NCBI GenBank assembly: GCA_017694565.1
Contig: JADIMR010000054.1
Coordinates: 1 to 37,861, forward strand
Direction: 5' to 3'
Source: Candidatus Enterocola intestinipullorum
GTDB lineage: Bacteria > Bacteroidota > Bacteroidia > Bacteroidales > Paludibacteraceae
DNA: 37,861 nucleotides
Shown here piece after piece: positions 16,580-25,710 of this stretch. Position 1 is the stretch's first letter; every line of letters starts with the position of its first letter. The position numbers were made by a program, and so were the translations under genes. A model generated the notes under the pieces. That model had not been told where the DNA came from and did no database searches. It saw nothing but the letters and a program-made list of their open reading frames with translations.

Positions 16580-16900
16580 TCAAAGATTTTTTAAAAATAT
16601 TGCGGGATGCTCATTACAAACACACAAAACCGCTCCTCCACCAATTGCCATTAATTCGTCAGGCGCAATCTCCACTACCTTAAATGCGATTTCAACGAAA
16701 TGGGGGCTGTCGTAAACAAAAGAACGTTGATTTCTATCATATCTTATGGACGCTCCAGCATCTTTCAGTTCCTCAATAAGGTTGTAAACATGCTTCTTGG
16801 AAATCTTTAATTTTTGAGCAAATTCCTCTGAATTACCTGTGCTATGCAATCTGATCAATTGATCCATCCGTCGCACCCTTTCAATTTGTTCAATTAACAT
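16580..16900 (-). CDS. Small HTH protein with C-terminal double-glycine-leader-like motif
   Basis: EEFAQKLKISKKHVYNLIEELKDAGASIRYDR HTH; tail IAPDELMAIGGG-AVLCVCNEHPAIFLKNL. Confidence 0.8.
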   Translation of the reverse strand: MLIEQIERVRRMDQLIRLHSTGNSEEFAQKLKISKKHVYNLIEELKDAGASIRYDRNQRSFVYDSPHFVEIAFKVVEIAPDELMAIGGGAVLCVCNEHPAIFLKNL

Positions 16901-16950: not shown

Positions 16951-19104
16951 TCAAACTTGCTGGTTTTGCCAAAGCCGGAAAAATTCGCCTTTAGCGGCAA
17001 CCAGCTGCTCGAATTTGCCTTGTTCCTGCAATTTGCCTTCCGCCAAAACAAAAATCCGGTCGGCATTGCGAACAGTGCTCAACCTGTGTGCAATCACTAT
17101 TATTGTTTTTCCCTTTTTCCGTTGTTTTGCTATTGTTTCCTGTACATACCTTTCTGAAACAGAATCCAAGGAAGAAGTGGCTTCGTCCAAAATCAAGATT
17201 TCGGGATTTTTGTACAAAGCCCTTGCGATTGCAAGCCTCTGCCGTTGTCCACCTGAAAGCATAGACCCGTTTTCTCCGATATTGGCATTAAACCCTTCCG
17301 GAAGTTTTTCTATGAAATCCAAAAGCCCCAAATCCTTTGACAGCTCCACAACTCTTTGTATATCCGGTGTTTCATCTCCTATTGCAATATTTTGCAACAC
17401 CGTGCCTGAAAACAAATCAACCTGTTGAGGCACAGATGCCACCAATGACCTTAACGATGCATTGCTGACATATTGCAAATCCATTTCGCCGATAAAAATC
17501 TTTCCACCTGCAATAGGATATAAATTTTGCAACAAATGCGCAATGGTGGACTTGCCCGACCCGCTTTCGCCCACGATTGCCGAAAACTGTCCCTTTTTGA
17601 AAACTATGCTGAAATCATCAAACACTTGCGTTCTTGTACCATAACGGAACGACACGTGCGACATTTGCACGTCGCCGGCCATTTCCGGCTTGATGTCCAC
17701 CTTTTCTCCCTTTTCCTCTCTTTCCAAATCCATAATCTCAAACAATCTGTCCGCCGCGATAATCGCTGTGCGCACCGACTTGTTTGACTCCACCAATTCG
17801 GCAATAGGGCCGGTGAAATATCCTATCAGTGCATAAAACGACATAAGCTCGCCGGCGGTTATTTCGCCGTCCAAAACAAAATAGGATCCAGCCCATAAAA
17901 GGACTATCGTGAATATCCTGTTGATGACTTCGGACGACCTGCCGGAAAACACAGCGTTCATTGCTGAGCTGTATATGGAATACAGCATTTTGACAAAGCG
18001 GTTTTCCGTTTTAAGGTTGGAAAAATGTTCTATGCCGAATTGTTTTATTGTACGAACCCCATTTATTGATTCTACAAGCTGGCTTTCCAATGCCGCCGCG
18101 TCTTCCATCAACCTGCGCTCGGTCCTTTTGTTCCATTTGTCGGTAATGAGGTACAGACCAATATATAAAGGGATTACTATCAACATTATGAGAGCGAGTT
18201 TCCAATAATACGTGAACATCAATGCGAAAGAAAAGATTATGATGAACACGTTAACTACCAACCGTATGGCCGTGGAGTTGATGAAATTGCGGATTTGGAC
18301 TGCATCGCCTATGCGCGAAGTGATTTCGCCCGTTTGCATTGTATCAAAAAAGGTTTGCGGCAACAATAGCAAATGCTTGTAATAACCCAATATGAGCCTT
18401 GAATCTATCAATTGACCGCTGCGAAGCACCATTACCGACTGGCAACAACCGAGTATGAGCTGGAAAGCAAGTATCAGCAACATTGCCACACCCAAAAGAT
18501 TGAGCAGATTGGTATTTCCGCCAACCAACACGTTGTCGGTGATTTTCTCGATATATATCGAAGTGGACAAACCAAGCACCGTGTACAACAACGCGCCGAA
18601 TAGTGCCTGTGCCAACACATTGGAATTGGGACGCACCAAAGCCCAAAAACGCCGCCAGACAGAAACCGTGTTATCGACAGCTTCGAAACCATCATCGGGT
18701 TCCAATAATACCAGCACACCCGTCCATTCACCGCTGAATTTTTCTGCGGGTACGAATTCCATCGTTCCGTATGCAGGATCCATAATTTTGACTTGCCCCT
18801 TTCTATAACCATAAACAACAACGAAATGATGAAGCTCCATATCACCGTTTTTTCGGACAACATGGGCTATTGCCGGGGTAGGAATTTTATCCAACACTTC
18901 TTTTTGTGCTTTCACGCCCTTTGCCACAAATCCCATTTTTTCCGCAGCCTGAATCAATCCGAGGACGTTCGTTCCTTGTTTGTCAGTGCAGGCATACTGC
19001 CTTATGCGGGCGATGGGCATCCTCAGGCGGTAATGCGCGGCAACGGAAGCAAGGCATGCCGCCCCGCAATCCCGCATATCATGTTGTTTTACAGTTTCTT
19101 TCAT
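16951..19104 (-). CDS. Peptidase-containing ABC transporter (C39, PCAT)
   Basis: C39 catalytic residues QHDMRDCGAACL, HHFVVVYGY, IMDPAYG; Walker A GESGSGKST, signature LSGGQ, Walker B ILILDEATSSLD. Confidence 0.95.
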   Translation of the reverse strand: MKETVKQHDMRDCGAACLASVAAHYRLRMPIARIRQYACTDKQGTNVLGLIQAAEKMGFVAKGVKAQKEVLDKIPTPAIAHVVRKNGDMELHHFVVVYGYRKGQVKIMDPAYGTMEFVPAEKFSGEWTGVLVLLEPDDGFEAVDNTVSVWRRFWALVRPNSNVLAQALFGALLYTVLGLSTSIYIEKITDNVLVGGNTNLLNLLGVAMLLILAFQLILGCCQSVMVLRSGQLIDSRLILGYYKHLLLLPQTFFDTMQTGEITSRIGDAVQIRNFINSTAIRLVVNVFIIIFSFALMFTYYWKLALIMLIVIPLYIGLYLITDKWNKRTERRLMEDAAALESQLVESINGVRTIKQFGIEHFSNLKTENRFVKMLYSIYSSAMNAVFSGRSSEVINRIFTIVLLWAGSYFVLDGEITAGELMSFYALIGYFTGPIAELVESNKSVRTAIIAADRLFEIMDLEREEKGEKVDIKPEMAGDVQMSHVSFRYGTRTQVFDDFSIVFKKGQFSAIVGESGSGKSTIAHLLQNLYPIAGGKIFIGEMDLQYVSNASLRSLVASVPQQVDLFSGTVLQNIAIGDETPDIQRVVELSKDLGLLDFIEKLPEGFNANIGENGSMLSGGQRQRLAIARALYKNPEILILDEATSSLDSVSERYVQETIAKQRKKGKTIIVIAHRLSTVRNADRIFVLAEGKLQEQGKFEQLVAAKGEFFRLWQNQQV

Positions 19105-19114
19105 AAGGCAGGGT

Positions 19115-20251
19115 TCAACTTTTCATCAATTTTGGATTGAACCAATCGTCAATCTTGTCGAACAGCAGCTGCCACAAACTCCGTTCGGTTAGGGTAAAAC
19201 GCCCTGTGAGGGTCATGCCTTTACGGATTGGGGCGGCATAGCCGTTTTTTAGGCTCAAGCTATCGGAAAGCAGCTTGCAGCGGACAGTAAAATAAGAGGC
19301 ATTTTGTTCGATTGTGATGTTGTTGTCGATGTCCGAGACCTCGGCTTTGCCCAATCCCCATTGGTTGTAATCCAAAGCATCGAATTGCAAGCGGACAGGC
19401 TGCCCCACATGGACGTAGGCAATATCTGCCGGCAGTACGGTGCATTCAACCATCATTACATCATCTGGCGAAATCACTGCAACAGTCTCTCCGGGATAAA
19501 CGAAAGAATTTTCGGACAAACCTGAATACTCGGTAATAGTGCCGTCTATCGGGGATATAATGACATAATCCGCCATCTCTTTTTCCAAACGGGCAATGGA
19601 GCCTACCATGTTGGTCATTTCCTGCTCGGCCTCCTGACGGGCATTGTTCCACTCGAACAGTTTTTGCTGGCGCAAGATTTCAGTTTCCGCTTTTACCGAC
19701 TTGTATTCGGCAAGGCTTTGGTCGTAATCGTAAACCGTAACAACTCCCGCATCCGCCCCTTGCTTGTTGCGTCTAAGTTCCGAATGCAATATGCTATCCC
19801 GCAACGCAAGCTCTGCAAGCCGCTGCTCAAAATCAGCCAAATCGCTTTTGTACAAGAATGTCGACAAAGAATCCTTTATCCTTACTCCTGCACATAATTT
19901 TCTCAAATCGCCATGCCTTGCACTAAGTTCGGAAAGTAATCGTGTTTGCATTTCGAGCTGCGCGGAAAGCTGTCCCGATGAAACGACCAGCAATGTATCG
20001 CCGGCCTTAACAGCCTTATTTATAGACATTGTCACTTTTTCCACCCTGCCCTGCACTACCGGCTTTATTTGAACATCCTCTTCTACCGCACGGACTATAC
20101 CCCTGCTCTGGCTGCTCACTTCAACTTTGACCACAGGCAGCATGACAATCACGATTATCAACATAATGACAAACAGCCAATAAATCCACGGATGCTTGCT
20201 CTTATACTTTTGTTTCAGGTAATCGACCGTGTATTTATAATCTGCTGCCAT
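19115..20251 (-). CDS. HlyD-family periplasmic adaptor
   Basis: 378 aa; N-terminal TM, VKPVVQGRVEKVTMSINKAVKAGDTLLVV lipoyl-like, coiled coil, SPIDGTITEYSGL. Confidence 0.93.
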   Translation of the reverse strand: MAADYKYTVDYLKQKYKSKHPWIYWLFVIMLIIVIVMLPVVKVEVSSQSRGIVRAVEEDVQIKPVVQGRVEKVTMSINKAVKAGDTLLVVSSGQLSAQLEMQTRLLSELSARHGDLRKLCAGVRIKDSLSTFLYKSDLADFEQRLAELALRDSILHSELRRNKQGADAGVVTVYDYDQSLAEYKSVKAETEILRQQKLFEWNNARQEAEQEMTNMVGSIARLEKEMADYVIISPIDGTITEYSGLSENSFVYPGETVAVISPDDVMMVECTVLPADIAYVHVGQPVRLQFDALDYNQWGLGKAEVSDIDNNITIEQNASYFTVRCKLLSDSLSLKNGYAAPIRKGMTLTGRFTLTERSLWQLLFDKIDDWFNPKLMKS

Positions 20252-21542
20252 TTTCCGATAGTTTCAAATACGCATGGAGAACCTCGACCTTGTAAAGCCA
20301 TTCATATTTAGCTTTTATGGCTTGACGTTGTGCCGATGTGTGCTTTTGCCGGTAGATTTCCAACTCGTAGCTCGGCAAGAGCCCCAAAGAATATGAATGA
20401 GCCGCATAACGCACCTGCTCGCCACTCATGGCTTCGGTTTGCGCTGCCAAATCGTATAATTCGTAGGTATGCGACAAATCCAAGTGTATAACTTTCAAAT
20501 CATCATATATTTGCCTTTTCAGGCGATTCGCCTCATTTTCCGAAGCCGCACGTGAAAATTCATTCTTTTTGATATTGTTGCGTATTGCAAGTTGGGAAAA
20601 AATCGGAATGGATATGGATATATTTGCATTTTGGTGGAAATTTCCACCCCATTGGTCCGATGCCGGACGGTTGATCTGCCCTTGTAGGAATTGCGACGAC
20701 GTTCCGAGTTCGTAATTGAAGTAAATCGACGGATATAATTGGCGGCGACACGCTTTATTTTCCGTTTCAAGTGCCGAAATCTCTATCCGCTTTGCTTTCA
20801 GCGCAGGATGATTGTCGATAGTCACGGAATATATTTCTTCAAAACCGGGCAACATTGGCAAACTGTCGATGGATGATATTTCGATACTGTCGCTATCAAA
20901 TTGCATAATCTCAATCAAAGCGGCCTCTGCCTTTTCCACCTCGTATGCCTGCGCTGCCATATCTTGCTTATATTGCATAAGGTTGGTACGGGCATCGAGC
21001 AAATCTCGTTTGGAGGACTTTCCTATTTCATGCAACTTAGCCGTATTGCTTACCACGCTATCTTGGGAAACGTAATTGCTTTTTGCCACGTTGTAATTCT
21101 CCCTCGCCACAAGTAGCGTATAGTAACAACTTATTATTTCCAATTTGACAGAAAACTCTCGATTTGCCTTGTCTGCAAGGTTCTGCTGCCTGTCGAGCTC
21201 GCGTACCTTTACTAATGCCCGTTGTGCCTCGGCACTCCACAGTGGCAGCGACAGACTTATCGCGGCACTGTTGCTATAACTCTGCACACTTTGGTATATT
21301 CCGGCGGCATCTTCCGTAAACACTTGTTGATAACCTTGCGACAGTCCATTATTTATATTGGCAGACAGGGTCGGGCTGAACTTGTACTTTTGCGATTTCA
21401 CATCCAATTGTTTGTTGCAGTCTTCGATGTCGTATGCTTTCAAATCGTACCTGTTTTTCAAAGCGTAATCAATGCAGTCGGAAAGGGAATAAGAACGGGC
21501 AAAAACGATGAAACTGTTTGACCAAAAAAGGAAAAACAACAT
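20235..21542 (-). CDS. TolC-family outer membrane efflux protein (start probably MLFFLFWSNS)
   Basis: SYSLSDCIDYALKNRYDLKAYDIE and second OEP repeat; signal peptide only with the internal start; ORF-track start at 21632. Confidence 0.88.
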   Translation of the reverse strand: MLFFLFWSNSFIVFARSYSLSDCIDYALKNRYDLKAYDIEDCNKQLDVKSQKYKFSPTLSANINNGLSQGYQQVFTEDAAGIYQSVQSYSNSAAISLSLPLWSAEAQRALVKVRELDRQQNLADKANREFSVKLEIISCYYTLLVARENYNVAKSNYVSQDSVVSNTAKLHEIGKSSKRDLLDARTNLMQYKQDMAAQAYEVEKAEAALIEIMQFDSDSIEISSIDSLPMLPGFEEIYSVTIDNHPALKAKRIEISALETENKACRRQLYPSIYFNYELGTSSQFLQGQINRPASDQWGGNFHQNANISISIPIFSQLAIRNNIKKNEFSRAASENEANRLKRQIYDDLKVIHLDLSHTYELYDLAAQTEAMSGEQVRYAAHSYSLGLLPSYELEIYRQKHTSAQRQAIKAKYEWLYKVEVLHAYLKLSENGSRL

Positions 21543-21567
21543 ACAATATTTTTTCAAGGCAACAATC

Positions 21568-22635
21568 CTAAAATCTTCTTGAAATTCTAAAAATTTTTTG
21601 CAAAAATTTTCCATATGAAACTGCAAAACCAAAATTTCTACTCAAATATAATGCCAACCTACTTATTTTATAGTAATCTATATCATATTTGCTTCTTGCT
21701 TTTAATAGACTATCGGGAATACCCGTTCGTGAAATGTCAAAATGCCTGATAAAATCAGAACATGATATTTGATATAGGAAATTCTTAACCTCACGATCTT
21801 CTTTCTCCATCCTAATATAATCCGCATACGATTGAACAAACCCTGTGGAGATAAAGAACACTGCATACGCATTCTTATATTGATTAAAAACTTTCGCCTG
21901 TTTTAAAAATTCTCGGACAGAGATAATTGCTGAAAATCTACTTTCTATTGTTTTTCGAGTCCAAGTCTTAGTTATTGAACCCTTGCGCGTGAAATAATTA
22001 TATAGAGGCAACCCAACTACACTAAGCTTGTCTATGTGGTACAAGAGTTTTGAAGAATATATTATGTCCTCATAATATATACCACTTTCATCAAATCCTA
22101 TTTTACAATCTATCAATAGACTTCGCTTGACAAAATATTTCCATGGTTGAATAAATAACCCTGATTTTTGTAATAAAAACCGAACATATAAATCATCTTT
22201 TTCCAAATCAGTTAAATTTTGGTCGGGAATGAACTCAATACAACTCTGTACTTTCCGATGTTTCATCGCAATTTGACGATGCCCGTATAGTACCACATCG
22301 GAATTATCTGCCTTTGCTTGACTTAACAACGTTTCAACCGTGTTTTTTTCTATAGTATCATCGGAATCGACAAATAATATATATTCTCCCGTCGACTTAA
22401 CAATCGCGTCATTTCTACCAAATCCGTTGCCTTTATTAGTAGTATAATTTATAAGACTTATCCTATTGTCCCTATTTATGTAATCTTGAATTATTTCGAG
22501 CGTAGAATCTGTAGAGGCATCATTTATGATCACGACTTCCAAATTATCATATGACTGATTAAGCACGGAATCTAAGCATTGCCCTATATACTTTTCAACA
22601 TTATACGCCGGGATTATCACAGTTACGACCTCCAT
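21568..22635 (-). CDS. Glycosyltransferase family 2
   Basis: MEVVTVIIPAYNVEKYIGQCLDSVLNQSYDNLEVVIINDASTDST and FVDSDD; ORF-track start at 22653. Confidence 0.92.
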   Translation of the reverse strand: MEVVTVIIPAYNVEKYIGQCLDSVLNQSYDNLEVVIINDASTDSTLEIIQDYINRDNRISLINYTTNKGNGFGRNDAIVKSTGEYILFVDSDDTIEKNTVETLLSQAKADNSDVVLYGHRQIAMKHRKVQSCIEFIPDQNLTDLEKDDLYVRFLLQKSGLFIQPWKYFVKRSLLIDCKIGFDESGIYYEDIIYSSKLLYHIDKLSVVGLPLYNYFTRKGSITKTWTRKTIESRFSAIISVREFLKQAKVFNQYKNAYAVFFISTGFVQSYADYIRMEKEDREVKNFLYQISCSDFIRHFDISRTGIPDSLLKARSKYDIDYYKISRLALYLSRNFGFAVSYGKFLQKIFRISRRF

Positions 22636-22994: not shown

Positions 22995-23025
22995 TTTATT
23001 TCTTCAAAAAAAAGCACTACCTTTG
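22995..23025 (+). promoter_or_regulatory. Candidate Bacteroidetes promoter for the precursor-peptide operon
   Basis: TTTA-N19-TACCTTTG, about 48 nt upstream of the first precursor start. Confidence 0.6.
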
Positions 23026-23443: not shown

Positions 23444-23605
23444 ATGGAACTAATCAATAGCGAAAAAACCAACAAGCCCGCCACAAACAAGAAGCGCAAA
23501 CCCAACTGGGAAAAATGCTCGCTCTCGATAATTCTTGCTGCTTTATTAGGGTGGATGATTGGTTGGGACTTGGGTTCCGGAATTACCCATTTGAACTTGT
23601 TTTAG
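23444..23605 (+). CDS. Leaderless small membrane peptide related to precursor 2 (53 aa)
   Basis: MELINSEKTNKPATNKKRKPNWEKCSLSIILAALLGWMIGWDLGSGITHLNLF; shares LGWxIGWxLGSG with precursor 2. Confidence 0.75.
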   Translation: MELINSEKTNKPATNKKRKPNWEKCSLSIILAALLGWMIGWDLGSGITHLNLF

Positions 23606-23629: not shown

Positions 23630-23667
23630 AAAAATGGTCTGGTTTAATATTAAACCAGACCATTTTT
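23630..23667 (+). terminator. Perfectly palindromic terminator of the precursor operon
   Basis: AAAAATGGTCTGGTTTAATATTAAACCAGACCATTTTT is a perfect 38-nt palindrome ending in T5. Confidence 0.85.
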
Positions 23668-23755: not shown

Positions 23756-24191
23756 TCAATTAGAGATTTCTTTCTCCGATGCCCTGTCTGTTGGGTTCAT
23801 TTTAAAAGAGAACACGGGTCGCCAGTTATTCAAAAAAAGCACAAACAAAACCGCAGCAAATACACTTCCATATCCGACAACTCGCAAAGTAATTGCATAT
23901 TCCTGCATTAGTACATGACATTCCGAAAATAAGTACTGCAACAACACAGATCCGGCATTTGCACAAATATGAATCAATACCACATTTCCCAAGTTTCCAG
24001 TCCTATAAAACAACCACGACATGAACAAACTCAAAAGCAACGCATTTGCGAATGTAAAAAACTTCTCTAAAACAGGAGCAGGAGAAAGAATATCGTAATG
24101 CAATATTGCAAACAACAACGAAACTCCCACTAAGCTATCACATATCTCCACCAATTGTGTTTATACCTATATGCTTGGCTCAGAATTCCAT
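23756..24191 (-). pseudogene. CPBP-type protease remnant/chimera
   Basis: 24154-23756 encodes FAILH and HICAN CPBP motifs but lacks EExxxR; 24191 downward reads ATGGAATTCTGAGCCAAGCATATAGGTATAAACACAATTGGTGGAGATAT, matching the start of the intact CPBP gene at 25710. Confidence 0.7.
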
Positions 24192-24306
24192 ATCTTGTTA
24201 TTATTTGATAATTCACACTCCCATAACAGAAAAAAACTATTGCACGAAAAATGGCAAAAAAAGTAACGAGCATGTCTTTATATACTATACTCTGCCCTCT
24301 ACCATT

Positions 24307-24759: not shown

Positions 24760-25710
24760 TTACTCCTCCACTGCCACCACAGGCCTTTCAATCTTCCGGA
24801 ACAACCTACGCCAATCCCAATGGTAGAGTTTTGTGGCAATCAATAGGAACAATGCCATTACTGCAAACGAAATCAATAATGATTCCCACGACAGGATAGA
24901 AGGTTCCGAGGAAGAAAACAATGCCGGCATACGTATGTCGCTGTTTGGAAATGTAATTATGCACGTGCACAGCACGTTGTTAATGAAATGCACGCCCCAA
25001 GCCATTTCCAAACCGTCGTCCAAGACCGTGCATAACGCCAATGCTAACCCCATAAGGAAATATTCCGCCAACGCCCATGTCCCGCTGTCGGCAACCGCGA
25101 CGTTCATGCAGTGCAAGCCGGTAAAAAGCAGAGTCGGGACAATCAATACCACCCACTTTTGGCTGGTAATCAAAGCAATGCCTTGCGCGAGATAGCTTCT
25201 GCAAAGAACTTCTTCGTACAACGTTTGAATTGGAAAAAGCAGCAGCATCAGCACCAAGCCTAAGAAAAAGTCATTGGCGTTGAAAGAAAATGTTACCGCG
25301 CCGGGGTCGGAGAAGATGATTCCGATTGCCAATACCGCTGCCAAAATAAATCCGTACACCGCAACCCCGTAAAAGAATCTGTCATAACGGAACTTAGTTG
25401 CGGCAGTAAGCAAATCCTTGATTTTTCCTTTGTGCAGTATCTTGTAAAACAAGATAAAGAAGAACAGCATGAAAACAAATGGCAACATAAGACACAGCGA
25501 AAAACCCAAGGCAAAACCCATATTTTCCATAAGGGCATAGGTGCGCTCTACCATGCCCATTGATTGCATTTCAGGAGTGGCAAATCGTAAACCAATGACA
25601 TTACCTATGATGCCTGCGCACAATTGTGCTAAAAGTACGGACAAAACTATTGTCAATAAATATCTCCACCAATCGTGCTTATATTTATGCGCTTGTGCTA
25701 AGAATTCCAT
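24760..25710 (-). CDS. CPBP (CAAX/bacteriocin-processing type) intramembrane metalloprotease
   Basis: YEEVLCRSYL (EExxxR), LFTGLHCMN (FxxxH), HFINN (HxxxN), multiple TMs. Confidence 0.9.
   Translation of the reverse strand: MEFLAQAHKYKHDWWRYLLTIVLSVLLAQLCAGIIGNVIGLRFATPEMQSMGMVERTYALMENMGFALGFSLCLMLPFVFMLFFFILFYKILHKGKIKDLLTAATKFRYDRFFYGVAVYGFILAAVLAIGIIFSDPGAVTFSFNANDFFLGLVLMLLLFPIQTLYEEVLCRSYLAQGIALITSQKWVVLIVPTLLFTGLHCMNVAVADSGTWALAEYFLMGLALALCTVLDDGLEMAWGVHFINNVLCTCIITFPNSDIRMPALFSSSEPSILSWESLLISFAVMALFLLIATKLYHWDWRRLFRKIERPVVAVEE

Follow-up and report, generated by a model that had tools for sequence, protein, structure and literature searches.

Introduction

Candidatus Enterocola intestinipullorum carries a locus in which two double-glycine (GG) precursors, P1 and P2, are followed by a short peptide that has no leader, ORF3. 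How class IIb immunity works has not been established, according to a review (PMC8538875), and the immunity proteins of two-peptide bacteriocins show little mutual similarity (PMC6957408, PMC8538875). The window of 37,861 nucleotides, meaning the whole stretch of DNA under study, corresponds to contig 34 in a draft genome of 1.81 Mb.

Architecture of the locus

P1 and P2 are double-glycine precursors of 55 aa each on the forward strand. In P1 (23073..23240), the leader ends in NTNGG and is followed by IIGPEW, with the core IIGPEWVIIGTAFGIALVAGLVGGFFLGGY. In P2 (23260..23427), the leader ends in EYCGG and is followed directly by the core LSFNLLDRVLAAIALGWDIGWTLGSGLRKTFFY, which is the one copied by ORF3. 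A -7-like element (TACCTTTG; 23018..23025, forward strand), resembling the Bacteroides -7 promoter consensus TAnnTTTG, was located 47 nt ahead of P1. Downstream of ORF3, a perfect 17-bp hairpin with a T-run at its end (23630..23667, forward strand; z -6.8) is likely the terminator of the P1-P2-ORF3 unit. A simple promoter/terminator scan of the window gave nothing useful, and this hairpin was absent from its list. The genes divergent from the unit (16951-21632, reverse strand) were assigned by domain searches to a C39-peptidase ABC transporter (PCAT; 16951..19104), an HlyD-type adaptor (19115..20251) and a TolC-type outer membrane channel (20235..21632).

A small HTH protein adjoins the exporter (16580-16900, reverse strand; HTH_11, E 1e-4, below the cut-off). 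HTH proteins were likewise observed near the exporters of other loci examined in this study, namely, L059 (6628-6948), L065 (6470-6862), L103 (12181-12492), L112 (8894-9253), L164 (4019-4339) and L183 (3364-3684). Such proteins end in a GG motif and a short tail, for example DDESKEIFGG followed by SNFRPILLDGTLISLL, and this ending was present in 17 of 20 exporter-side HTH proteins found by pattern. The tail of the regulator might be cleaved by the exporter, although we know of no example of a regulator with an exporter-cut tail.

Three traits of class IIb systems were present here: a pair of neighbouring precursors, each with a double-glycine leader, GxxxG motifs in both cores (GTAFG in P1 and GWDIGWTLG in P2) and a dedicated C39-peptidase exporter. 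The class IIb precursor model TIGR03949 matched P1 below its cut-off (17.1 bits against 21.5; E 0.0035) and did not match P2, while the mimicked precursors of L093 and L112 passed it. From the architecture, we infer that P1 and P2 probably give rise to a two-peptide bacteriocin similar to those of class IIb. As GG peptides can also be pheromones, P1 and P2 might instead be signalling peptides, with ORF3 belonging to sensing and not to immunity. The sub-threshold match of P1 is compatible with this, as is the still putative killing activity of the surveyed loci. However, the paired GxxxG-rich cores, the class IIb model matches of the relatives and the orphan arrays described below fit bacteriocin immunity better, and a role in signalling is regarded as very improbable.

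ORF3 (23444..23605, forward strand; MELINSEKTNKPATNKKRKPNWEKCSLSIILAALLGWMIGWDLGSGITHLNLF) is the candidate core-mimic immunity peptide. It has no GG motif, its N-terminus is cationic, and its one predicted helix contains GWMIGWDLGSG. The reading frame upstream of its ATG is shut after one codon; therefore, no hidden leader is present. The helix was placed at residues 22-52 by AlphaFold2 from the single sequence with moderate confidence (mean pLDDT 71). The closed frame and the single predicted helix bear out the preliminary description, which had presented ORF3 as a peptide of 53 aa that has no leader, begins with a cationic stretch and contains a single transmembrane (TM) segment. The GC content by codon position (0.34/0.40/0.57) differs from that of P1 and P2 and calls for caution. 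When ORF3, P2 and six further mimics were searched against Pfam and NCBIfam, none of them matched a model above its cut-off, and the CPBP membrane protease domain was absent from ORF3.

Likeness of ORF3 to the P2 core

The best local alignment of ORF3 and P2 (LSIILAAL-LGWMIGWDLGSGI / LDRVLAAIALGWDIGWTLGSGL) contained 14 identical residues out of 21 with one gap, and the motif common to both is a GxxxGxxxG glycine zipper. The likeness had been counted by eye as 11 of 17 positions; it is real, and the match becomes stronger when one gap is allowed. The alignment score was 67, compared with a mean of 21.7 (sd 4.5) and a maximum of 48 for 5000 shuffles of ORF3, and the score of ORF3 against P1 was 28. 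At the nucleotide level, the identity of ORF3 and P2 at codon positions 1, 2 and 3 was 57, 81 and 29%, respectively, and the same codon was used at 5 of the 14 identical residues, which indicates that the likeness is held at the protein level. As the score exceeded those of all shuffles and third positions were this divergent, the likeness is neither due to chance nor to a recent copy. ORF3 and P2 have long been separate, and their amino-acid likeness was either preserved or produced by selection.

A recent duplication of P2 was considered as the origin of ORF3 and was ruled out by the codon evidence. A related explanation is that ORF3 is a functionless duplicate of P2 that has lost its leader, as might be suggested by a gene that is adjacent, similar and leaderless. 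This is hardly credible, because the proteins are 67% identical despite the 29% at third codon positions and because the same layout is repeated in about a dozen core types, as described below.

A six-frame search of the source genome matched only ORF3 itself and P2. No significant relatives of ORF3 were found in 200 genomes of related organisms or in the species genomes, nor among plasmids, viral contigs and PDB sequences.

Survey of leaderless peptides across Bacteroidota

Since ORF3 had no relatives elsewhere, the transporter was used as bait for a survey. It was found in 10 of 150 family genomes and 23 of 393 order genomes, with the genome of the window included in both counts. Species genomes yielded 80 Bacteroidota loci, and 29 of 396 phylum genomes were positive, again including the window's own. 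A Flavobacterium set (28 of 300 genomes) was found with a precursor as the query. Among the loci examined first, there were already further leaderless cationic single-TM peptides that looked like copies of their precursors; the sets of L052-L131, the phylum and Flavobacterium were fetched after the idea of mimicry had arisen.

Leaders were recognized with a position-specific scoring matrix (by pattern in an earlier version of the survey), TM and charge filters were applied, and the peptides were locally aligned to the cores of their own locus and to those of other loci. Candidates were leaderless cationic single-TM ORFs on the same strand within 600 nt of a precursor in 152 deduplicated loci, and the controls were 190 equally filtered ORFs from elsewhere in the surveyed loci.

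Likeness to the own-locus core at p≤0.01 was observed for 19 of 80 candidates and 1 of 190 controls (Fisher 2.6e-10; 152 loci), counts that are not all independent events because the surveyed sets include related loci. The p-values are somewhat conservative, as the null consists of other-locus cores and core families are shared. Alignment scores of at least 33 were reached by 22 candidates and 0 controls in the 152 loci. The co-occurrence of leader-bearing and leaderless paralogues, which the preliminary description had proposed to look for, was therefore found. ORF3 gave p 0.001 for its own locus and the top score of the survey. Among the 24 peptides at p≤0.05, the mimic lay downstream of the copied core in 23. 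The possibility that ORF3 is a spurious ORF was ruled out by the control ORFs.

Divided by set, likeness at p≤0.01 was found in 5/12 candidates of the window and first loci, 5/31 of L052-L131, 2/13 of the phylum set, which by its small size and weak signal could not establish the pattern by itself, and 7/24 of Flavobacterium, a set that is not fully independent because it was picked by likeness to a precursor neighbouring a mimic. In 22 pairs taken together, identity at codon position 3 was 40% and the same codon was used at 47% of 191 identical residues, so most of these mimics are not recent copies. The leaderless core-mimic arrangement is recurrent in Bacteroidota and is not a one-off of this genome.

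In approximately three quarters of the leaderless TM ORFs beside precursors, mimicry was not detected. Thus, several types of immunity may exist, including CPBP/Abi proteins. For the present locus, immunity could be sought in the neighbouring CPBP (Abi-type) genes, with ORF3 as an accessory or decaying gene. An intact CPBP membrane protein of 316 aa is encoded at 24760..25710 (reverse strand; domain search), and Abi proteins give protection against some class IIb bacteriocins according to PMC6957408 and PMC8538875. However, only a remnant is left of the CPBP gene nearest to ORF3 (23756-24154), and the two CPBP genes are encoded on the opposite strand, outside the P1-P2-ORF3 unit. Moreover, the protein sequence of ORF3 has been kept despite synonymous saturation, and mimics recur beside precursors in many loci. 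Immunity from the CPBP genes is therefore considered unlikely here.

The remnant (23756-24273, reverse strand) comprises 132 aa with a weak CPBP match after an N-terminal stretch that resembles that of its neighbour. Beside the intact paralogue, it is apparently a decayed tandem copy.

Core types and orphan mimics

Grouped by eye, the mimic pairs represented about a dozen core types. The window locus has GWxIGWxLGSG. The other types were GYAVGY (L093, L098, L115 and L164), GWxLGR (L128 and L183), GYxxGK (L086), GYxDGRxDK (L112), DWDNFxxGL (L049-L051 and L113), GKAIYY (L166 and L167), GEAYGRxLA (L170 and L179) and CGLG (L171 and L174), with further types in L048, L143 and L148.

Orphan mimics, single or arrayed, whose precursor was absent from the stretch, were found in L167, L183, L139, L148, L145, L040 and L068. 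In Flavobacterium L167, the locus's own pair and its matching mimic are followed by additional leaderless peptides belonging to three types (GWxLGR, GYAVGY and L112-like), and the precursors for these extra mimics were absent from the stretch read. Mimics of the GYAVGY type without a matching precursor were also present in L183 and L139, the latter having a series of four leaderless peptides. Among the several leaderless peptides of L148, one ends in FSDWENFKAGLTGNPP, which resembles DWDNF cores from different species, while another matches a Tenacibaculum core (NDAQNHPEDVISGF / HDAIDHPQAFVDGF). The retention of protectors against toxins that the cell does not make is typical of immunity genes and would be unexpected of toxin parts.

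This bears on the possibility that ORF3 is itself part of the toxin, as a third component without a leader that would leave the cell by a different route and act together with P1 and P2. Leaderless bacteriocins exist, and ORF3 both contains the P2 core and shares a transcription unit with P2. However, orphan mimics beside unrelated bacteriocins would be unexpected for part of a toxin, a cationic N-terminus followed by a hydrophobic helix signals retention, and no second export system was seen adjoining ORF3. A toxin component is thus a doubtful explanation of ORF3.

The arrays of differing leaderless single-TM peptides 3' of GG precursors cover 12784-15277 in L148 and 5918-8616 in L139. As most of their members have no precursor in the stretch, they are possible immunity collections. 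A different layout was observed in L033 (5301-6363, on a contig shared with L060) and L160 (11704-14870), where long tandem series of near-identical GG precursors have very short cores, unlike the two-peptide loci.

Comparison with known immunity peptides

CbnZ is a proven immunity peptide of 42 aa with one N-in/C-out transmembrane domain (TMD) that confers 250-fold protection, and cbnX and cbnY lie 5' of its gene (PMC6957408). CbnZ and ORF3 are alike in being short and leaderless and in following directly after two GG precursors; for ORF3, one helix is predicted, and its cationic N-terminus would be expected to lie inside. However, CbnZ is from a Gram-positive bacterium whereas ORF3 is from Bacteroidota, and the alignment of their sequences scored 20, a background level that gives no sign of homology. 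The CbnZ locus was located on a Carnobacterium plasmid, where a 42-aa ORF was taken as CbnZ by length and position; the sequences of CbnX and Abp118 used as queries agreed exactly with records in the database. CbnZ and CbnX aligned without gaps over 22 residues with their glycines in register, a borderline result (p 0.02-0.07), and mimicry of CbnX by CbnZ is not discussed in the consulted passages of PMC6957408.

That paper lists further short class IIb immunity peptides, namely, BrcI (53 aa), EnkIaz (52 aa) and AbpIM (55 aa), which resemble ORF3 in size and putative role. A 55-aa ORF that follows the Abp118 precursors, at the position of AbpIM, showed no likeness to its toxins. Thus, the position, size and predicted topology of ORF3 are of a known kind, whereas clear mimicry is new and has so far been seen in Bacteroidota.

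In Gram-negative Caulobacter, CdzI is a small inner-membrane immunity protein against the two glycine-zipper toxins of the Cdz system, which are exported by a type I system (PMC5380434). This resembles the role proposed for ORF3. However, the Cdz toxins are cell-associated and larger, and the consulted passages of PMC5380434 report no toxin mimicry by CdzI.

Proposed role of ORF3

Taken with these comparisons, ORF3 is proposed, with a probability of roughly 70%, to confer immunity to a two-peptide bacteriocin similar to those of class IIb and to act as a membrane-anchored analogue of P2. Immunity, as suggested in the preliminary description, fits the gene order, the cationic N-in signal, the recurrence of the arrangement, the specificity for the own core and the orphan arrays, while export of ORF3 by another route, suggested as the alternative, was unsupported.

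In the proposed mechanism, P1 and P2 would be cut at the GG motif by the C39 peptidase of PCAT and exported by the divergently encoded PCAT/HlyD/TolC system, and ORF3 would substitute for P2 as its analogue. Owing to the lysines and arginines ahead of the helix, a mimic should sit N-in/C-out with the shared motif facing the periplasm, where a returning toxin would meet it. We infer this topology and the protection by ORF3 from sequence. ORF3 may then pair with the returning toxin peptides into dead-end complexes, similar to an antiholin, or it may fill a receptor site needed by P2; within the immunity reading, co-assembly was judged somewhat more probable than receptor occupation, the weighting being a matter of judgement.

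In the lambda S107 antiholin and in the wtf poison-antidote pairs, the protector has the membrane segment of the toxin and neutralizes it by co-assembly, and an additional N-terminal positive charge of S107 sets its topology. ORF3 would work like these protectors, a likeness of mode and not of membership: S107 and wtf belong to other protein families and other biology, and in both, a single gene encodes the toxin as well as its protector.

Among the 22 strongest pairs, the mimics preserved the aligned core best in its C-terminal half (identity 0.51 vs 0.38). Compared with the core, the N-terminal half of the mimic had fewer small residues (0.25 vs 0.36, p 0.006) and was more hydrophobic (1.95 vs 1.45, p 0.0007). 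The replacement of small residues by bulky hydrophobic ones in this half is what would be expected of an anchored analogue.

Implications

In the open-access journal literature searched, we found no account of immunity conferred by core mimicry. The chances are about even that core-mimic immunity is a general form of self-protection in Bacteroidota, in which a leaderless, membrane-anchored copy of one toxin helix would block pore assembly by substituting for that helix and arrays would act against the toxins of rivals. A protector that copies the toxin's own helix would provide a direct and testable mechanism for immunity to two-peptide bacteriocins. It would also offer a way to find the immunity genes for many unannotated GG peptides of Bacteroidota, allow orphan immunity genes to be paired with toxins and reveal the helix face that is important in pore assembly. 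If true, the specificity of immunity could be read off the toxin sequence.
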